Notes under the pieces: model-generated | The model's database searches: none | Told to the model about the DNA's origin: nothing | The model's input: the letters and a program-made list of their open reading frames with translations, nothing else | Virus record (IMG/VR): IMGVR_UViG_3300041405_000097 | Location: 1 to 45,468 of that record | From: a virus | Length of the DNA: 45,468 bases | Direction: 5' to 3' (one strand) | In this document: positions 5,715 through 33,683 of the stretch, in pieces | How positions within the stretch are numbered: position 1 is the first letter of the stretch | Layout: each line of letters begins with the position of its first letter | Program-made: the position numbers and the translations under genes

Positions 5715-5722
5715 TATATTAC
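5715..5722 (+). promoter_or_regulatory. phiKZ-type early promoter (TATATTAC)
   Basis: TATATTAC, the known core of phiKZ early promoters used by the virion RNA polymerase. It lies 28 bases upstream of the start at 5750 in the gap between divergent genes. Upstream sequence TTAGAACC..TTTAAAGAG is almost identical to that before 33247. Confidence 0.75.
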
Positions 5723-5749
5723 TAATGGGAATTAACTAGAGTAACATAC

Positions 5750-6118
5750 ATGAAAAAGCTTGACTTGAAACTGATTCAGCGTGAATCGTTCTGCAACCAG
5801 CGCAGCTACGAGGCTGCTATTTATGCCGCCACGATCATTAACCGCATGCTGGCTTTATCCAAGCAAGGTCATTTGATCTTGAGCTACGAGAACGTTGTAA
5901 AACTCAATGCTCGTATTGAGTTAGATGCACTAGGTGAATTCCAGTTCATCATGATCGGTGATCACGAAGAAGCCAACGTAATGTTGGTGGGTGATGAAAC
6001 CATGGAATTCGGTGATACAAGTAAGATCTACTGCACTAAGAAAACCATCCGTGAATTCTTCAAGCTGTGGCGTGTATGCCGCATCACTAACGTCGTTAAA
6101 GCAACTGACCTGACCTAA
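5750..6118 (+). CDS. Hypothetical early protein (122 aa)
   Basis: First gene of the plus-strand cassette that splits nrdB from nrdA, directly behind a TATATTAC promoter. It begins MKKLDLKLIQRESFCNQRSY, with an N-terminal helix, a beta segment (GEFQFIMIGDHEEANVMLVG) and a basic C-terminal helix (TIREFFKLWRVCR). No membrane segment or known motif is visible. The next gene starts 17 bases on, so the two are probably co-transcribed. Confidence 0.75.
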   Translation: MKKLDLKLIQRESFCNQRSYEAAIYAATIINRMLALSKQGHLILSYENVVKLNARIELDALGEFQFIMIGDHEEANVMLVGDETMEFGDTSKIYCTKKTIREFFKLWRVCRITNVVKATDLT

Positions 6119-6134
6119 TACAAGGACTATTGAA

Positions 6135-6752
6135 ATGCTGCAAGAATACATCGAATCCGTTACTAAAGCTACTCCAGTTTTCGAAATCCCTGTTGTACTG
6201 GAAAAGAACGCAATCCGAGATACATTCTTCCCAGTATTCAAGGGTTGCAATGTAGTCGTGCTAGAAGATTCCGATCGAGTAGGCGATCCAACCAACCTGT
6301 TGGATGCTGAGGTGATTATCGATCAACAGTCGATCGATCGCCGCATCGAACCATGTTACCAAGCTGAGCTTTCTCGTATCCATTCCGAGGCAATGGTAGA
6401 AGATCTCACTGATCGTCTGAAGTCTGGTGAGTTATCCGACGACCCACTGGTTGAAATGCCAGAGAGCTTTGTTAGTCGTATCGCCGATATGTTGGAACGC
6501 CGCCGTATCAAACTAGCTAATGAGAAGCTGGTATGGTTCACCATGCGCGAAGATCATTCGGGACATATGTTTCTCAGCTGGCCACTCAGTGGTTACATGC
6601 CAATCACTGGCGGTATGATCTTTCATGATCTCAAGGTACAGAAAGCGTGCACCCGTCTGAAGAATCGGCACCACATCAAGAATATCCAAGTAACTGGTTC
6701 GGTAGTACCATCTGCGGTTCCAGTCTATTTCGATTGGATTCCGACCGAGTAA
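6135..6752 (+). CDS. Hypothetical early protein (205 aa)
   Basis: Start ATG at 6135 has AGGA eight bases upstream. The N-terminal half is acidic and mixed alpha/beta. A central helical region has alternating charges (LTDRLKSGELSDDPLVEM, then IADMLERRRIKLANEKL). The C-terminus is beta-rich and aromatic (MFLSWPLSGYMPITGGMIF). It forms a probable two-gene operon with 5750. I do not recognise a family. Confidence 0.75.
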   Translation: MLQEYIESVTKATPVFEIPVVLEKNAIRDTFFPVFKGCNVVVLEDSDRVGDPTNLLDAEVIIDQQSIDRRIEPCYQAELSRIHSEAMVEDLTDRLKSGELSDDPLVEMPESFVSRIADMLERRRIKLANEKLVWFTMREDHSGHMFLSWPLSGYMPITGGMIFHDLKVQKACTRLKNRHHIKNIQVTGSVVPSAVPVYFDWIPTE

Positions 6753-6773
6753 TACTAGAACCTGTTTTACGGC

Positions 6774-6781
6774 TATATCAC
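6774..6781 (+). promoter_or_regulatory. phiKZ-type early promoter variant (TATATCAC)
   Basis: TATATCAC differs by one base from TATATTAC and is preceded by TAGAACC and a T-rich stretch as at the other sites. The following TGTTGTGAATT is nearly repeated after the 7183 promoter. It lies 34 bases before the start at 6816. Confidence 0.6.
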
Positions 6782-6815
6782 TGTTGTGAATTTACCTATC
6801 CCTTGGAGTACTGAA

Positions 6816-7178
6816 ATGTCGATGTGCCCTAAAACCGATGCGATGGAAAATGGTCTGAAGTCGATCGTTGACGAGTTGATCGGTGCTGTGTGGGTTGAAT
6901 CCGGTAAGGCAATCCCAAGCTTCAACATCTGGGAAGCTGATAAAGCGATTGAAGTTATCCCCATCGATCGTGAAACCGAAAACTATCAGATCGACATGCG
7001 TGTCGGTAAGAAACAGTTGCGCTTCAAGTGGAAGTCCGGTGAGATGATCCTCAAAGGTTGTGGGGTGTATTTCTACGACTGGGGTGATTGCAACATGGAT
7101 GAACTGGCTATTGCCGGTGGTCTGATGTTGATGTACTATGGTCAGGCAATGGCCGAAGAAACATCAGAAGCAATTTAA
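6816..7178 (+). CDS. Hypothetical early protein (120 aa)
   Basis: The frame is open from 6786, but the ATG at 6816 has a good GGAG site eight bases away and lies correctly downstream of the promoter, so it is preferred over the GTG at 6786. It begins MSMCPKTDAMENGLKSIVDE. An N-terminal helix is followed by beta strands (KAIEVIPID, YQIDMRVGKKQLRFKW) and a C-terminal hydrophobic helix (LAIAGGLMLMYYGQAM). It is a single-gene unit: another promoter overlaps its end. No known motif. Confidence 0.75.
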   Translation: MSMCPKTDAMENGLKSIVDELIGAVWVESGKAIPSFNIWEADKAIEVIPIDRETENYQIDMRVGKKQLRFKWKSGEMILKGCGVYFYDWGDCNMDELAIAGGLMLMYYGQAMAEETSEAI

Positions 7179-7182
7179 ACGC

Positions 7183-7190
7183 TATATTAC
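7183..7190 (+). promoter_or_regulatory. phiKZ-type early promoter (TATATTAC)
   Basis: Exact TATATTAC four bases after the preceding stop, with ATTTAAACG upstream and TTTTGTGAATTAATC downstream, the same arrangement as at 6774. It serves the gene at 7224. Confidence 0.75.
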
Positions 7191-7223
7191 TTTTGTGAAT
7201 TAATCACATCAATGGAGTTAATC

Positions 7224-7700
7224 ATGTCGGAAGACAATATCAAACGTGTTGTAGAGATTCAGAAAGAAGTCTCTCTGCACGTTCAGCACCGGATGGCAGC
7301 TCTGATCGGTACCCCAGAAGAACGTCCTTTCATGACCAAGTGCATGGAAGCCGCAATTGAAGTATCGACGCAGCTGCGCGATCTGGTTGTCTCCGGCATG
7401 ACTTACGAGTCGTGGCGAGACTACTTCGTCGATCGTGCAACTAACTCGGCGTTCCTGCAATTGATCGACAACGAAGCCCGTGACCTGAACCGCCTGTACG
7501 AAGAGATCCAATCCATGGATCTGACCGAGTACTACGCCGTGATGGTCGACGGTAAAATTGATCTGACTGAGTTGAATCAACAGATCATCGAGATGGAGCA
7601 CAATCGTACCTGTCTGCTCGAAATCTGGGCAGAAGAAGACGCAGAGCAAAATGAAGTCGAGCGTCATGGTGATCCAGACGCCGATAAACGTCTTCCGTAA
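7224..7700 (+). CDS. Helical protein, first of three tandem paralogues (158 aa)
   Basis: ATG 7224 (MSEDNIKRVVEIQKE) has GGAG at seven bases and is preferred over the upstream ATG at 7212, which includes that site. The protein is almost all helix, with heptad-like charge patterns. The segment YESWRDYF..N.AF.QL......L..LYEEIQSMDLTEYY aligns with the two following genes (YPEWYAAF.. and YLTWVAGT..), marking a divergent paralogue set. Its C-terminus is acidic (AEEDAEQNEVE). It has a phage-type promoter, unlike the other two copies. Function unknown; the repeated helices recall phasin-like or structural helical bundles only loosely. Confidence 0.75.
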   Translation: MSEDNIKRVVEIQKEVSLHVQHRMAALIGTPEERPFMTKCMEAAIEVSTQLRDLVVSGMTYESWRDYFVDRATNSAFLQLIDNEARDLNRLYEEIQSMDLTEYYAVMVDGKIDLTELNQQIIEMEHNRTCLLEIWAEEDAEQNEVERHGDPDADKRLP

Positions 7701-7706
7701 TAATGC

Positions 7707-7735
7707 TTGACCTGTAATACAAACCACGCTACACT
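7707..7735 (+). promoter_or_regulatory. Host sigma70-type promoter
   Basis: TTGACC (7707-7712) and TACACT (7730-7735) are spaced by exactly 17 bases. It lies just after the stop at 7700 and 35 bases before the start at 7771. There is no TATATTAC motif here. Confidence 0.65.
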
Positions 7736-7770
7736 GGCTACATCAACCACCAAACCCAAGGAGTAACACC

Positions 7771-8202
7771 ATGTCTGCAAACACTTTCGATGCATTGAAC
7801 GCTCGCGCTACCGTTATCGGTATGGCGATGGGTGCTCGCGCGGTACACGAGAACAACGTTGAAGTACTGCGTAAGATGCGTGAAAGCGCTGATAAGCTGT
7901 ACGACATTGTGATCGCGCTGGCTGAGGGTAAGGCTGACTACCCTGAGTGGTATGCTGCATTCATCGATCTGAACGTGAATAATGCGTTCCATGAGATGGA
8001 TGAAACCGGCGAATTCACTCGCATCGTTGATGAACTCAAAACCATCGACGCAACCGGCTACTACTTCTCCACCATCGTTCCATTGATCAAGGCTGGCCCT
8101 GCTGTCCTGATCGACGAACGTCGTCGCATGATGCTCGGCTTCGATATGGTGATCGAACAAGTGATCGCTAACCGTCGTGCCCTCATCAAGCCAGTTGAAT
8201 AA
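7771..8202 (+). CDS. Helical protein, second of three tandem paralogues (143 aa)
   Basis: Starts MSANTFDALNARATVIGMAM with AAGGAG upstream. Long amphipathic helices dominate. The block DYPEWYAAFIDLNVNNAF..M..........IVDELKTIDATGYYFSTIVP is shared in pattern with 7224 and 8295; the C-terminal AVLIDERRRMMLGFDMVIEQV aligns with VMLIEGKTEMIQGLDIAIAEM of the third copy. It has its own sigma70-like promoter. Role unknown; strong translation and promoter signals suggest an abundant product. Confidence 0.8.
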   Translation: MSANTFDALNARATVIGMAMGARAVHENNVEVLRKMRESADKLYDIVIALAEGKADYPEWYAAFIDLNVNNAFHEMDETGEFTRIVDELKTIDATGYYFSTIVPLIKAGPAVLIDERRRMMLGFDMVIEQVIANRRALIKPVE

Positions 8203-8216
8203 CAACTGAAATAAAT

Positions 8217-8243
8217 CTGGATTAGGGGTTGACTCTAATCCAG
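8217..8243 (+). promoter_or_regulatory. Inverted repeat around a -35 box, candidate operator
   Basis: Perfect 9-bp arms CTGGATTAG / CTAATCCAG with a 9-base centre that contains the -35 hexamer TTGACT (8229-8234). No U-tract follows and the stem is not GC-rich, so an operator is more likely than a terminator for the preceding gene. This is inference from position only. Confidence 0.6.
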
Positions 8244-8257
8244 GTCCCGCTTATAAT
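8229..8257 (+). promoter_or_regulatory. Host sigma70-type promoter
   Basis: TTGACT and a consensus TATAAT (8252-8257) with a 17-base spacer, 37 bases before the start at 8295. It is the best bacterial-type promoter in the window. Confidence 0.75.
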
Positions 8258-8294
8258 AGCTACGCAAATCAATCATACCTCTAGGAGTTTCACC

Positions 8295-8729
8295 ATGTTC
8301 AACATCGAATTCCCTTTCTCGTCCGTTACTGGTTACGCTGAAGTACAGAAAGTCTTTCTGGACCACAGTATCGAAATGGCAGCCAAGGCTGTCGAAGCTC
8401 AAGATCTGGTTTATATGGAAGCGCTGCGCGCCGACACTCTGACCGTCATGAACTTCACCATCGAATGCGTCAGCAATCGGTACGATTACCTGACCTGGGT
8501 AGCTGGTACGAATTACATCAATCGCACCAGTAAATTGGTTGGTCTTGATAAGTCTGGCAAGTTGATGAAGGTAATAGAGATGATGGAGAAGCTGAACGCC
8601 GAAGCCTACTATCATGCGGAAGTGGTGCCGGTGTTCAACACCCCTCTGGTCATGCTCATTGAAGGTAAAACTGAAATGATTCAAGGTCTAGATATAGCCA
8701 TCGCAGAGATGCGTGAAGCTCGCGCCTAA
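8295..8729 (+). CDS. Helical protein, third of three tandem paralogues (144 aa)
   Basis: ATG 8295 (MFNIEFPFSSVTGYAEVQKV) has AGGAG upstream; the frame is open further up but that part contains the promoter. The protein is helical, with alanine- and methionine-rich amphipathic helices and no membrane segment. DYLTWVAGTNYINRTSKLVGL....L.KVIEMMEKLNAEAYYHAEVVP and VMLIEGKTEMIQGLDIAI align with the preceding gene. It is driven by a consensus sigma70-type promoter whose -35 box sits inside an inverted repeat. It ends at a strong terminator facing nrdA. Function unknown. Confidence 0.8.
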   Translation: MFNIEFPFSSVTGYAEVQKVFLDHSIEMAAKAVEAQDLVYMEALRADTLTVMNFTIECVSNRYDYLTWVAGTNYINRTSKLVGLDKSGKLMKVIEMMEKLNAEAYYHAEVVPVFNTPLVMLIEGKTEMIQGLDIAIAEMREARA

Positions 8730-8732
8730 CAG

Positions 8733-8780
8733 CATAAAGCCCCCTCCCGTAAGGAAGGGGGCATTTAGCTTTATTTTTTT
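8733..8780 (+). terminator. Strong intrinsic terminator between convergent genes
   Basis: CATAAA box then GCCCCCT (8739-8745) pairing with AGGGGGC (8756-8762), followed by TTTATTTTTTT. It closes the cassette 5750-8729 just before the end of nrdA. Confidence 0.85.
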
Positions 8781-11172: not shown

Positions 11173-11203
11173 TTGACAGAAAATATTTCAAATTTACATT
11201 ATG
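11173..11203 (+). promoter_or_regulatory. Candidate promoter with consensus -35 and a shared AT-rich element
   Basis: TTGACA (11173-11178), a 16-base spacer and TACATT (11195-11200) resemble a sigma70 promoter. The element at 11185-11203, ATTTCAAATTTACATTATG, is nearly repeated at 36692-36710 (two differences), so it may instead be a second phage promoter class. It supports a start at 11240 rather than 11201. Confidence 0.5.
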
Positions 11204-11239
11204 AATGTGCAGGTACCTAACTATGGTGTTGAGGGTTTT

Positions 11240-24379: not shown

Positions 24380-27031
24380 TTAAGTCCTCGTGATGTAAAT
24401 GAAAGGTGAAAGCTCCATTTCTTGACGCAACATGAGTTTCAGAATGCGACGATAATAGTCGTACTGATCATCAGTCAGGGCAACGGGAGACTCGAACCAA
24501 TGTGGATATACTTTCACATGGTTGGTATTGTATTCACGGTTGAGGATGTCGAAAGGCTTAAGCCACTCATACTGCTTCAGCTGATTCACGATATCCATGT
24601 CCGTATACCGACCATTCACGAATGGGGGTGCTAGACGACCGGCCAGAATCTCGGTGAGGATTTTCTGGGAGTAACTCGAGAATACATGGTAATGGCGAGG
24701 GATATTATCCGGGTTCGCTCTGACGCGTTTAGGGAAGTAATAACCCATAGCGTCACTAGTCCACTGGTCACGTTCGTCATCTTCTCTACGGGCCTTTAGA
24801 TCGTCTTTAAACACGGTCTTTAGGGTCACCTGCGGAGTTTGGACTTGGAACGGAGCACCATTGCGTTCATTCTGTACAGTCAGACCATTTCGGGCTTCCT
24901 CGAACACCACATCACGATAGTCTTTATAATGTCCATCGACTACGATGCGTTGCATTTTGTTCTGGTGAATGTGGTATGTAGAGTCGTTAGACAATACCCC
25001 ATATTCAACAAACCCAAACTCACTCGGTGGTAACCGCTTAAGATCAGGACCACAGAAACCAGAGCCACGAACCAGTACGGTTTGTACTCCAAGATTACTA
25101 CGGTACTCGAGGTTGTTGATGACGATCAAGTCACCATCATCAAAGAAGTCCAGCCCTTGGATCAATGCTCGGTTGTTCTGGATCAGATCAAGTTGGCCGA
25201 ATGGGATCTCCAAAGGCTTATTGACTAGTCCGGCACCCATGTCTTCCCAAGCAGCGATTTGGAATCGTAGTAGTCCAACCGTATCCAAGAAACGAATTTC
25301 TTTCAGGTAGAAGTACTCGTCTGTCCGAACATAACCCAAATATTGATTAGCCGGAATCGTCCATACCCACTTAGGGCTATAAAGGTCATCGTCAAAGAAA
25401 CCGTATTGATCACGGTCTTCAGCATCGGTGATGTCACGCCATTCGTTAGTAGGAACACCGCCCCAGACTTTAGTTACGTACACCCGGAAGTTGTAACCGT
25501 ACTTAATAGGTACTTCGGTATTACCGTAGACACCATTAAGGTTGTCAGAACCTTTACCGGCGATGCACTCAACCATCGTACACGATTGATAACGAGGGAA
25601 ATATTGACGGCCACCCGGATGGTAGTAGTAACCTAGTAATTCGCCTGCTACGTCATACTCAAACACCGTGCAATCGCGCCAGTAATAGAAAGCCAGATCA
25701 GCTCGACGAACACCAGTCATTGGATCGGGGATTACTTTAGCTGGGTTATCAGCCAGTAGCTTACCGCAACCATAATAACCATAGACCTCGGCAGCGAAGT
25801 TCTGTGCATCTACCTTACCTTGAGTATTCAACTCAGGCTCGTTAAACGTAATCGGGTAAATGAACTTAGGGTCTGCTGACATGAACCGAACATAGGCCGA
25901 TTGTTCAAGGTTTTCTGCACGCCACAATGGATTAAGTGCATCAACCCCAGTCATGTTGTTCAGAATCTGAGTAGACGTCAAACGGTACAGTTCCCAGATG
26001 CGGCTGGCATCTGCAACCAATGGTCGATCATATCCACCTTCACGGATATACATCTTCACCAACAAACCGCTGGCATCAGTCCATTCATCGTTTTCTGCTA
26101 CGAGTTGCTGCACCTTAGCCACAGGCATGCTGTAGTCTTTGTGGGTGAGCTGTCGCAACCAGATACCATCGTTATGGTGATACGTCACACCTTTAAACTG
26201 ATCTGCCGTTGTCCCCTGCTTAACCAGATGGATACTAATGTCATCATAGAAGTCGATTTTATTAGCCGTACTGTCGGTGTAATGCAGGATGTATTTACGC
26301 TGGGAGTCTAAGGTCGAATTAAATGTTTTCAGGTTACTGACCGGGAAAGTAATAACCTTTCTGATCGAGCCATCCAAGATAAAGTCGCAGTGATCACCCG
26401 GTACCGCTGTAACGATGCTAATCTCGTGTACAGGACGTCCATTGACGAAGTACATACCAACGCCACCCTTAGCAGCGATCGTGTCCATATTGCGAATCTG
26501 GAGCTGTCTGATGGCATCTTGGTTAACTGCCACGATAGACTCAGTAAAGATCCAACGTCGATTAGCTGTAGTCGAGCGTTTAGACTCGAAGTAAGCATTA
26601 TGGTAAAGGTGCAAGAAGATCTGATGGTCATCCAGCGTCGGGAATCGATCGCTAAGCTTCACAGCTACCAAAAGGTTCTCACGACTGGTAACCATCACGT
26701 AGGTTTCAGACATGCTGTAACGAATACCATTTGTTTGGTAGACGCTTGCTAATGTCAGGTGATCAGACGCCAGATCTTTCAAAGCGATCCAAGTATCTCG
26801 ACGCAGCAAACCCATACCGACGTTTGCTGGGATAACTTGACCGATCTGATAGACATGATAATAGTCACGGTTGTTGTTAGTCGGCATGAAATACCGATTC
26901 TGTTCAACAACGTAGTTGCCCCGGACGCCGTAGCGCGGGGTCAACTGCTGGAGAGCATACGTGAACTGATTATCATCAGCTGGGTTACACCAGACATTAT
27001 CAATTGCTTGACGCAAGAGATAGTTATCCAT
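24380..27031 (-). CDS. Large phiKZ-like virion structural protein (883 aa)
   Basis: Starts MDNYLLRQAIDNVWCNPADD. A large alpha/beta protein with no catalytic motif that I can see, rich in Tyr, Asp and Asn, with a central Gly/Tyr segment (EVYGYYGCGKLLADN) and a basic, helical end (RRILKLMLRQEMELSPF). Middle gene of the three-gene minus-strand block beside the divergent sheath gene. Probably part of the tail, neck or baseplate, by position only. Confidence 0.7.
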   Translation of the reverse strand: MDNYLLRQAIDNVWCNPADDNQFTYALQQLTPRYGVRGNYVVEQNRYFMPTNNNRDYYHVYQIGQVIPANVGMGLLRRDTWIALKDLASDHLTLASVYQTNGIRYSMSETYVMVTSRENLLVAVKLSDRFPTLDDHQIFLHLYHNAYFESKRSTTANRRWIFTESIVAVNQDAIRQLQIRNMDTIAAKGGVGMYFVNGRPVHEISIVTAVPGDHCDFILDGSIRKVITFPVSNLKTFNSTLDSQRKYILHYTDSTANKIDFYDDISIHLVKQGTTADQFKGVTYHHNDGIWLRQLTHKDYSMPVAKVQQLVAENDEWTDASGLLVKMYIREGGYDRPLVADASRIWELYRLTSTQILNNMTGVDALNPLWRAENLEQSAYVRFMSADPKFIYPITFNEPELNTQGKVDAQNFAAEVYGYYGCGKLLADNPAKVIPDPMTGVRRADLAFYYWRDCTVFEYDVAGELLGYYYHPGGRQYFPRYQSCTMVECIAGKGSDNLNGVYGNTEVPIKYGYNFRVYVTKVWGGVPTNEWRDITDAEDRDQYGFFDDDLYSPKWVWTIPANQYLGYVRTDEYFYLKEIRFLDTVGLLRFQIAAWEDMGAGLVNKPLEIPFGQLDLIQNNRALIQGLDFFDDGDLIVINNLEYRSNLGVQTVLVRGSGFCGPDLKRLPPSEFGFVEYGVLSNDSTYHIHQNKMQRIVVDGHYKDYRDVVFEEARNGLTVQNERNGAPFQVQTPQVTLKTVFKDDLKARREDDERDQWTSDAMGYYFPKRVRANPDNIPRHYHVFSSYSQKILTEILAGRLAPPFVNGRYTDMDIVNQLKQYEWLKPFDILNREYNTNHVKVYPHWFESPVALTDDQYDYYRRILKLMLRQEMELSPFIYITRT

Positions 27032-33290: not shown

Positions 33291-33683
33291 ATGACTCGTT
33301 CAGATAAAGTAGAAGCGGCTTTTAAAGCGTGTGGTATTGGTGGACGTTTTAGTAAGTTCAGTTTACAGCGAGACGGCACTCGCGTGAAGATGATCGATCA
33401 AGGTAAGCCTTCATTAAACCGTTGGAACTACCGCTTGCTTGACCAGTTCAATGCGAGTAACTATACTGAAGTCAACAGCGTGATGGCGGAACGAATGGTT
33501 AAAGATGACTCAGTCTGGGTCAGCCATTTCAATACCGCTCAAAAAATTATCGCCCACATGGTTCGGGTTGTTGACAGACCTGTTCTGCCAAGCGATAATC
33601 GCTACTTCGTAGATCGTAAGTCTGATTCGATCTTTATCGTCAACCACGGGTATTCCATCGGAATCGTTCCGGCTGTTAACTGA
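33291..33683 (+). CDS. Hypothetical early protein (130 aa)
   Basis: Starts MTRSDKVEAAFKACGIGGRF with AGGAG upstream, the first gene behind a TATATTAC promoter. Alpha/beta with a basic N-terminal half and a final beta pair (DSIFIVNHGYSIGIVPAVN). Start of a plus-strand run to 35416. No known family. Confidence 0.75.
   Translation: MTRSDKVEAAFKACGIGGRFSKFSLQRDGTRVKMIDQGKPSLNRWNYRLLDQFNASNYTEVNSVMAERMVKDDSVWVSHFNTAQKIIAHMVRVVDRPVLPSDNRYFVDRKSDSIFIVNHGYSIGIVPAVN

Follow-up and report, generated by a model that had tools for sequence, protein, structure and literature searches.

The sigma70-like sites at 7707 and 8229 of the window (the whole 45,468-nucleotide stretch of viral DNA analysed here) are best explained, at a probability of about 0.47, as a single homologous pair of promoters of sigma70 type, located where orthologous leaders have the virion-RNAP early promoter. 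The cassette that contains them lies between nrdB and nrdA, consists of small early genes that are paralogues of one another, and changes quickly. To judge from its sequence, the site at 8229 would probably be used by host RNAP on naked DNA; use of either site by the host enzyme during infection is doubtful, because the phage genome is enclosed.

By gene content, the window comes from a phage of the 201phi2-1/Viktualia-like (phiKZ-like) nucleus-forming group, Chimalliviridae, and the phiKZ-like assignment proposed in a first-pass annotation of this DNA is borne out by phiKZ-type structural genes, PhuZ and a 201phi2-1-type gene content. The window encodes PhuZ (phrog_4733, 1.6e-96), tail sheath, terminase and ribonucleotide reductase, has the gene order nrdB, small genes, nrdA, terminase and structural genes in common with 201phi2-1 and Viktualia, and carries at 24380-27031 an 883-aa protein with 65% and 63% identity to these two phages, respectively. 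Of the full-length relatives, 201phi2-1, Viktualia, G002 and G003 have multisubunit RNAP genes, in a region that lies beyond the 45-kb window. The closest contigs by NrdA are G001 (L008; 93%), G002 (L009; 85%) and G003 (L012; 84%). Searches by blastn and tblastn returned no homologues in other phages except one early-promoter match in Viktualia, and relatives were located via neighbouring genes instead.

The first-pass annotation gave the coordinates, hexamers, spacers and downstream genes of both sites exactly (Table 1). It had called both near-perfect, a description that suits 8229, with 11 of 12 consensus positions, and overstates 7707, with 9 of 12. Both hexamers of each site are near consensus and both spacers measure 17 nt (criterion 16-18 nt). 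The sigma70 PWM was composed of approximate E. coli hexamer frequencies that are not database-derived, and the perfect consensus TTGACA-17-TATAAT scores 15.6 on it. The -10 hexamer starts 43 nt before the ATG of 8295, 41 nt before that of 7771 and 46 nt before that of the G001 orthologue of 8295. In their hexamers, 17-nt spacer and placement upstream of an SD-led gene, the sites are like a bacterial sigma70 promoter; they differ from one in lying in a phage with msRNAP-encoding relatives, in the position of the 8229 -35 within a hairpin loop, and in being known here from sequence alone.

Table 1. Promoter-like sites, genes and hairpins of the nrdB-nrdA cassette.
Feature	Coordinates	Strand	Remarks
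Early core TATATTACTAATGGG of gene 5750	5715..5729	+	PWM 50.2
Early core variant TATATCACTGTTGTG of gene 6816	6774..6788	+	PWM 40.3
Canonical early core TATATTACTTTTGTG of gene 7224	7183..7197	+	PWM 50.3; closest upstream promoter for read-through into 7771 and 8295
Gene, 158 aa, third paralogue	7224..7700	+	canonical early promoter
Sigma70-like site TTGACC-17-TACACT	7707..7735	+	upstream of gene 7771; 9/12 consensus positions; PWM 10.27
Gene, 143 aa, paralogue of 7224 and 8295	7771..8202	+	
Perfect 9-bp inverted repeat (8217-8225/8235-8243), loop 9 nt	8217..8243	+	14 nt past the stop of gene 7771; loop contains TTGACT of 8229
Sigma70-like site TTGACT-17-TATAAT	8229..8257	+	upstream of gene 8295; 11/12 consensus positions; PWM 13.95
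Gene, 144 aa, paralogue	8295..8729	+	all-helical predicted fold
Terminator-like hairpin	8739..8762	.	cassette end, between convergent gene 8295 and NrdA

Across five related phages, 8229 ranks first by sigma70 PWM among 1,460 gene leaders, the gene starts being those of a simple home-made gene caller and not of a curated annotation, and it is the top sigma70 site in their 95 kb of upstream DNA. Sites of this quality are expected about 0.005 times in the 4,353 upstream bases of the window and about 0.15 times in all 95 kb (Markov-1). Such rarity weighs against the explanation that 7771 and 8295 have no dedicated promoters at all and lie behind decayed or promoterless gaps in an early operon read from 7183, their TTGAC-17-TAnnnT being a chance product of a single ancestral leader that duplication then copied. 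We regard this explanation as a real, if tentative, possibility, and among its grounds are the following: 7707, although its leader ranks 8 of 1,460, is of a quality expected 0.75 times in the upstream DNA of the window and is thus at chance level taken singly, and sigma70-like sites within a gene of the window, at 33439-33467 and 33571-33599, reach PWM scores of 12.4 and 12.6. In view of these in-gene matches, a good match to sigma70 proves little by itself. The two in-gene sites are 132 nt apart and fall within the conserved gene 33291-33683. In G002, G003 and 201phi2-1, upstream sites of this kind are not enriched (14 observed versus about 30 expected, with 14 reverse-facing), which indicates that they are not a general strategy of the clade; clade-wide use of host promoters was accordingly ruled out, no excess being found over reverse-facing or Markov controls.

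The early promoters of the phage itself were defined from 52 TATATTAC sites upstream of genes in the five phages, and the resulting consensus, tTAtTAGAAgCcaTTTAAAGnC-TATATTAC-tattGTGAATTa, matches the published 201phi2-1 motif (PMC7058600, Table 2). The TATATTAC core lies mostly 41-45 nt ahead of the start codon. The window has early promoters of this type on its + strand only, at 5715, 6774, 7183, 16117 and 33247; the cassette genes 5750, 6816 and 7224 have one whereas 7771 and 8295 do not. On the early PWM, 8229 scores -14.7 and 7707 scores -34, both at background, whereas almost every true early promoter scores between about 20 and 57, and a reading of the two sites as degenerate early promoters was ruled out by these scores. 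The upstream TTTAAA and downstream GTGAATTA elements of the early promoter are also absent at 7707 and 8229. The 201phi2-1/phiKZ early promoter resembles the window sites in occupying the same cassette at the same start-codon distance, being present in orthologous leaders of G002 and G003, and differs from them in having the core, TTTAAA and GTGAATTA.

The absence of these elements and the background scores also argue against a divergent class of phage promoter, served by the vRNAP or nvRNAP of the lineage and merely resembling sigma70, in which the -10-like TATAAT or TACACT would sit in the place of TATATTAC. This seems rather improbable to us, even though the distance of the -10 to the ATG at 8229 and 7707 falls in the early-core distribution (mode 41-45 nt), the trinucleotide CGC stands directly upstream in both window leaders, and TATATTAC itself generally reads as a -10, with TTATTA 16 nt upstream occupying the -35 place; such a class would leave the TTGAC hexamer unexplained, and the late TATG motif was not found at 7707 or 8229, a single instance occurring at the G001 site. 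As separate observations, gene 11201 has an early promoter (window 11173-11209) of unusual but conserved form, cATAAGGTTGACAGAA...TATATTAC-like, which doubles as a sigma70-like TTGACA-16-TATATT/TACATT in the window, G001 and G003, and not in G002, 201phi2-1 or Viktualia; and exact TATATTAC..GTGA early promoters share one direction per genome in the window, G001, G002, G003, 201phi2-1 and Viktualia.

The leaders of 7771 and 8295 are homologous to each other, and the 7771 leader is also homologous to that of the 8295 orthologue in G001 (shuffle p <= 0.002 in both comparisons). The two window sites therefore represent one event, not two, and independent sites were ruled out. The G001 leader carries TTGACC-17-TACTAT (G001 30964), shares TTGACC and the 17-nt spacer with the 7771 leader, and ranks 11 of 1,460. 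That three homologous leaders have all retained the 17-nt spacing within the top 11 of 1,460 speaks for promoters rather than promoterless gaps, as does a similar arrangement in the cultured relative Viktualia, in which APQOYWFA_CDS0181, a gene of the same type, is preceded by TTGACG-17-TAATAT (score 9.96, top 0.6% of leaders), although the -35 sits there in the 3' end of the preceding gene.

True early promoters precede the G002 orthologue of 7771 and the G003 orthologue of 8295. The 8295 orthologue in G002 lacks both promoter types, early and sigma70-like, a point against the promoter reading, and the G003 orthologue of 7771 has a weak TTGATT-17-TATTCT (8.24), with leader homology to 7771 that is not significant (p 0.11). 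These two genes and the G001 orthologue of 7224 lack the early core, and such gain and loss of promoters within the cassette fits promoterless gaps in an early operon as well. Family members without an early core outscore other gapped genes on the sigma70 PWM (Mann-Whitney p 0.003; p 0.047 with the three homologous leaders counted once), in a test devised post hoc when the pattern was already known. Earlier interpretation of this DNA is supported in part, by the phage class, by the two leaders without early promoter and by the recurrence of the sigma70-like arrangement in homologous leaders, with use of the sites by host RNAP staying a conjecture; it had overlooked the hairpin at 8229 and the early promoters, both those of the G002 and G003 orthologues and, in the window, those at 5715, 6774 and 7183.

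This hairpin folds as RNA (8217-8243) at -21.2 kcal/mol with z = -4.08, and its simplest reading, which counts against a promoter with its -35 in the loop, is that of a 3'-end hairpin of gene 7771. Of 454 codirectional gaps in the five phages, 36 contain a perfect hairpin of 9-12 bp, whereas shuffled gaps give 1.5; most of these hairpins lie 3-20 nt past a stop codon. Both the fold and this frequency could be taken to mean that the repeat is the key feature, insulating 8295 from read-through and regulating it as a 3'-end hairpin, a processing hairpin or an operator that covers the -35, with the sigma70 match being secondary. We hold this to be very unlikely, given that the repeat accounts for only one leader of the two, has no T run and provides no start for 8295. 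It may nevertheless cut read-through into 8295, in which case 8295 would need a promoter of its own. On the + strand between 7183 and 8738, no terminator-like site with a T run was found; 7771 and 8295 can thus be reached from 7183 by read-through, in keeping with an operon that needs no further promoters. Where orthologues of 7771 and 8295 in L009 and L012 have their leaders, a hairpin AGGTGATAT..ATATCACCT starts directly after the early core, and the mRNA 5' end would there be the stem.

The relatedness of 7224, 7771 and 8295, which had been proposed as a paralogue set, holds. The block 5750-8729 between nrdB and nrdA shifts rapidly in gene content and promoter state among close relatives, and the flanking genes are >80% identical. 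No PHROGs family was found for the paralogues. The 8295 protein is predicted to adopt an all-helical fold (pLDDT 90.8), for which no solved structural relative was found, its best structural match being an uncharacterised Phabio protein of 158 aa. A Phabio gene of 158 aa at L006 8179, likely to encode that same protein, has a TATATTAC early core upstream; its product shows no BLASTP similarity to 8295. Viral-contig matches to gene 7771 (L002/L127 and L126) were set aside as weak, with uninformative upstream DNA.

Taking the two sites as a homologous pair of sigma70-type promoters, we infer promoter activity, the polymerase and the order of events as follows. In the leader of an ancestral paralogue, the TATATTAC promoter would have given way to TTGACY-17-TAnnnT, with no change in the distance to the start codon (the -10 being some 41-46 nt ahead of the ATG), and tandem duplication would then have carried this leader to 7771 and 8295, the 8295 copy being the nearest to consensus. 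Host Esigma70 would transcribe naked 8229 DNA from about 8264. In the cell, most expression of 7771 and 8295 would come from read-through that starts at the vRNAP promoter at 7183, host RNAP contributing only at such times, if any, as it can get to the DNA. A stronger version, in which a few early paralogues of this lineage have passed from the virion RNAP to the host sigma70 RNAP, for expression from DNA within reach of the host enzyme, e.g., ahead of its enclosure in the early vesicle or while this takes place, appears unlikely.

The first-pass annotation had suggested that host promoters could let genes be expressed ahead of the phage programme or independently of it. The development of phiKZ is resistant to rifampicin (PMC4666361), and PMC7598289 and PMC12908238 describe phiKZ transcription as rifampicin-resistant and the phage genome as shielded at all stages; this resistance and enclosure leave little room for such expression. 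Among jumbo phages with msRNAPs, from which the phage of the window, known from sequence only, is separate, growth of RSL2 and RSF1 is rifampicin-sensitive and that of AR9 is reduced by rifampicin, and the authors could not exclude host RNAP transcription of some AR9, RSL2 and RSF1 genes, according to the relevant parts of PMC7598289 and PMC5312081, which name no host promoter in these phages.

Transcription in phiKZ-like phages is held to proceed independently of host RNAP, on DNA that stays enclosed. If the present reading is true, a working host promoter would mean that host RNAP meets the phage DNA at some stage, and would offer a simple reporter of when it does so; the cassette would also be a case of promoter switching between two unrelated polymerases inside one gene cassette.
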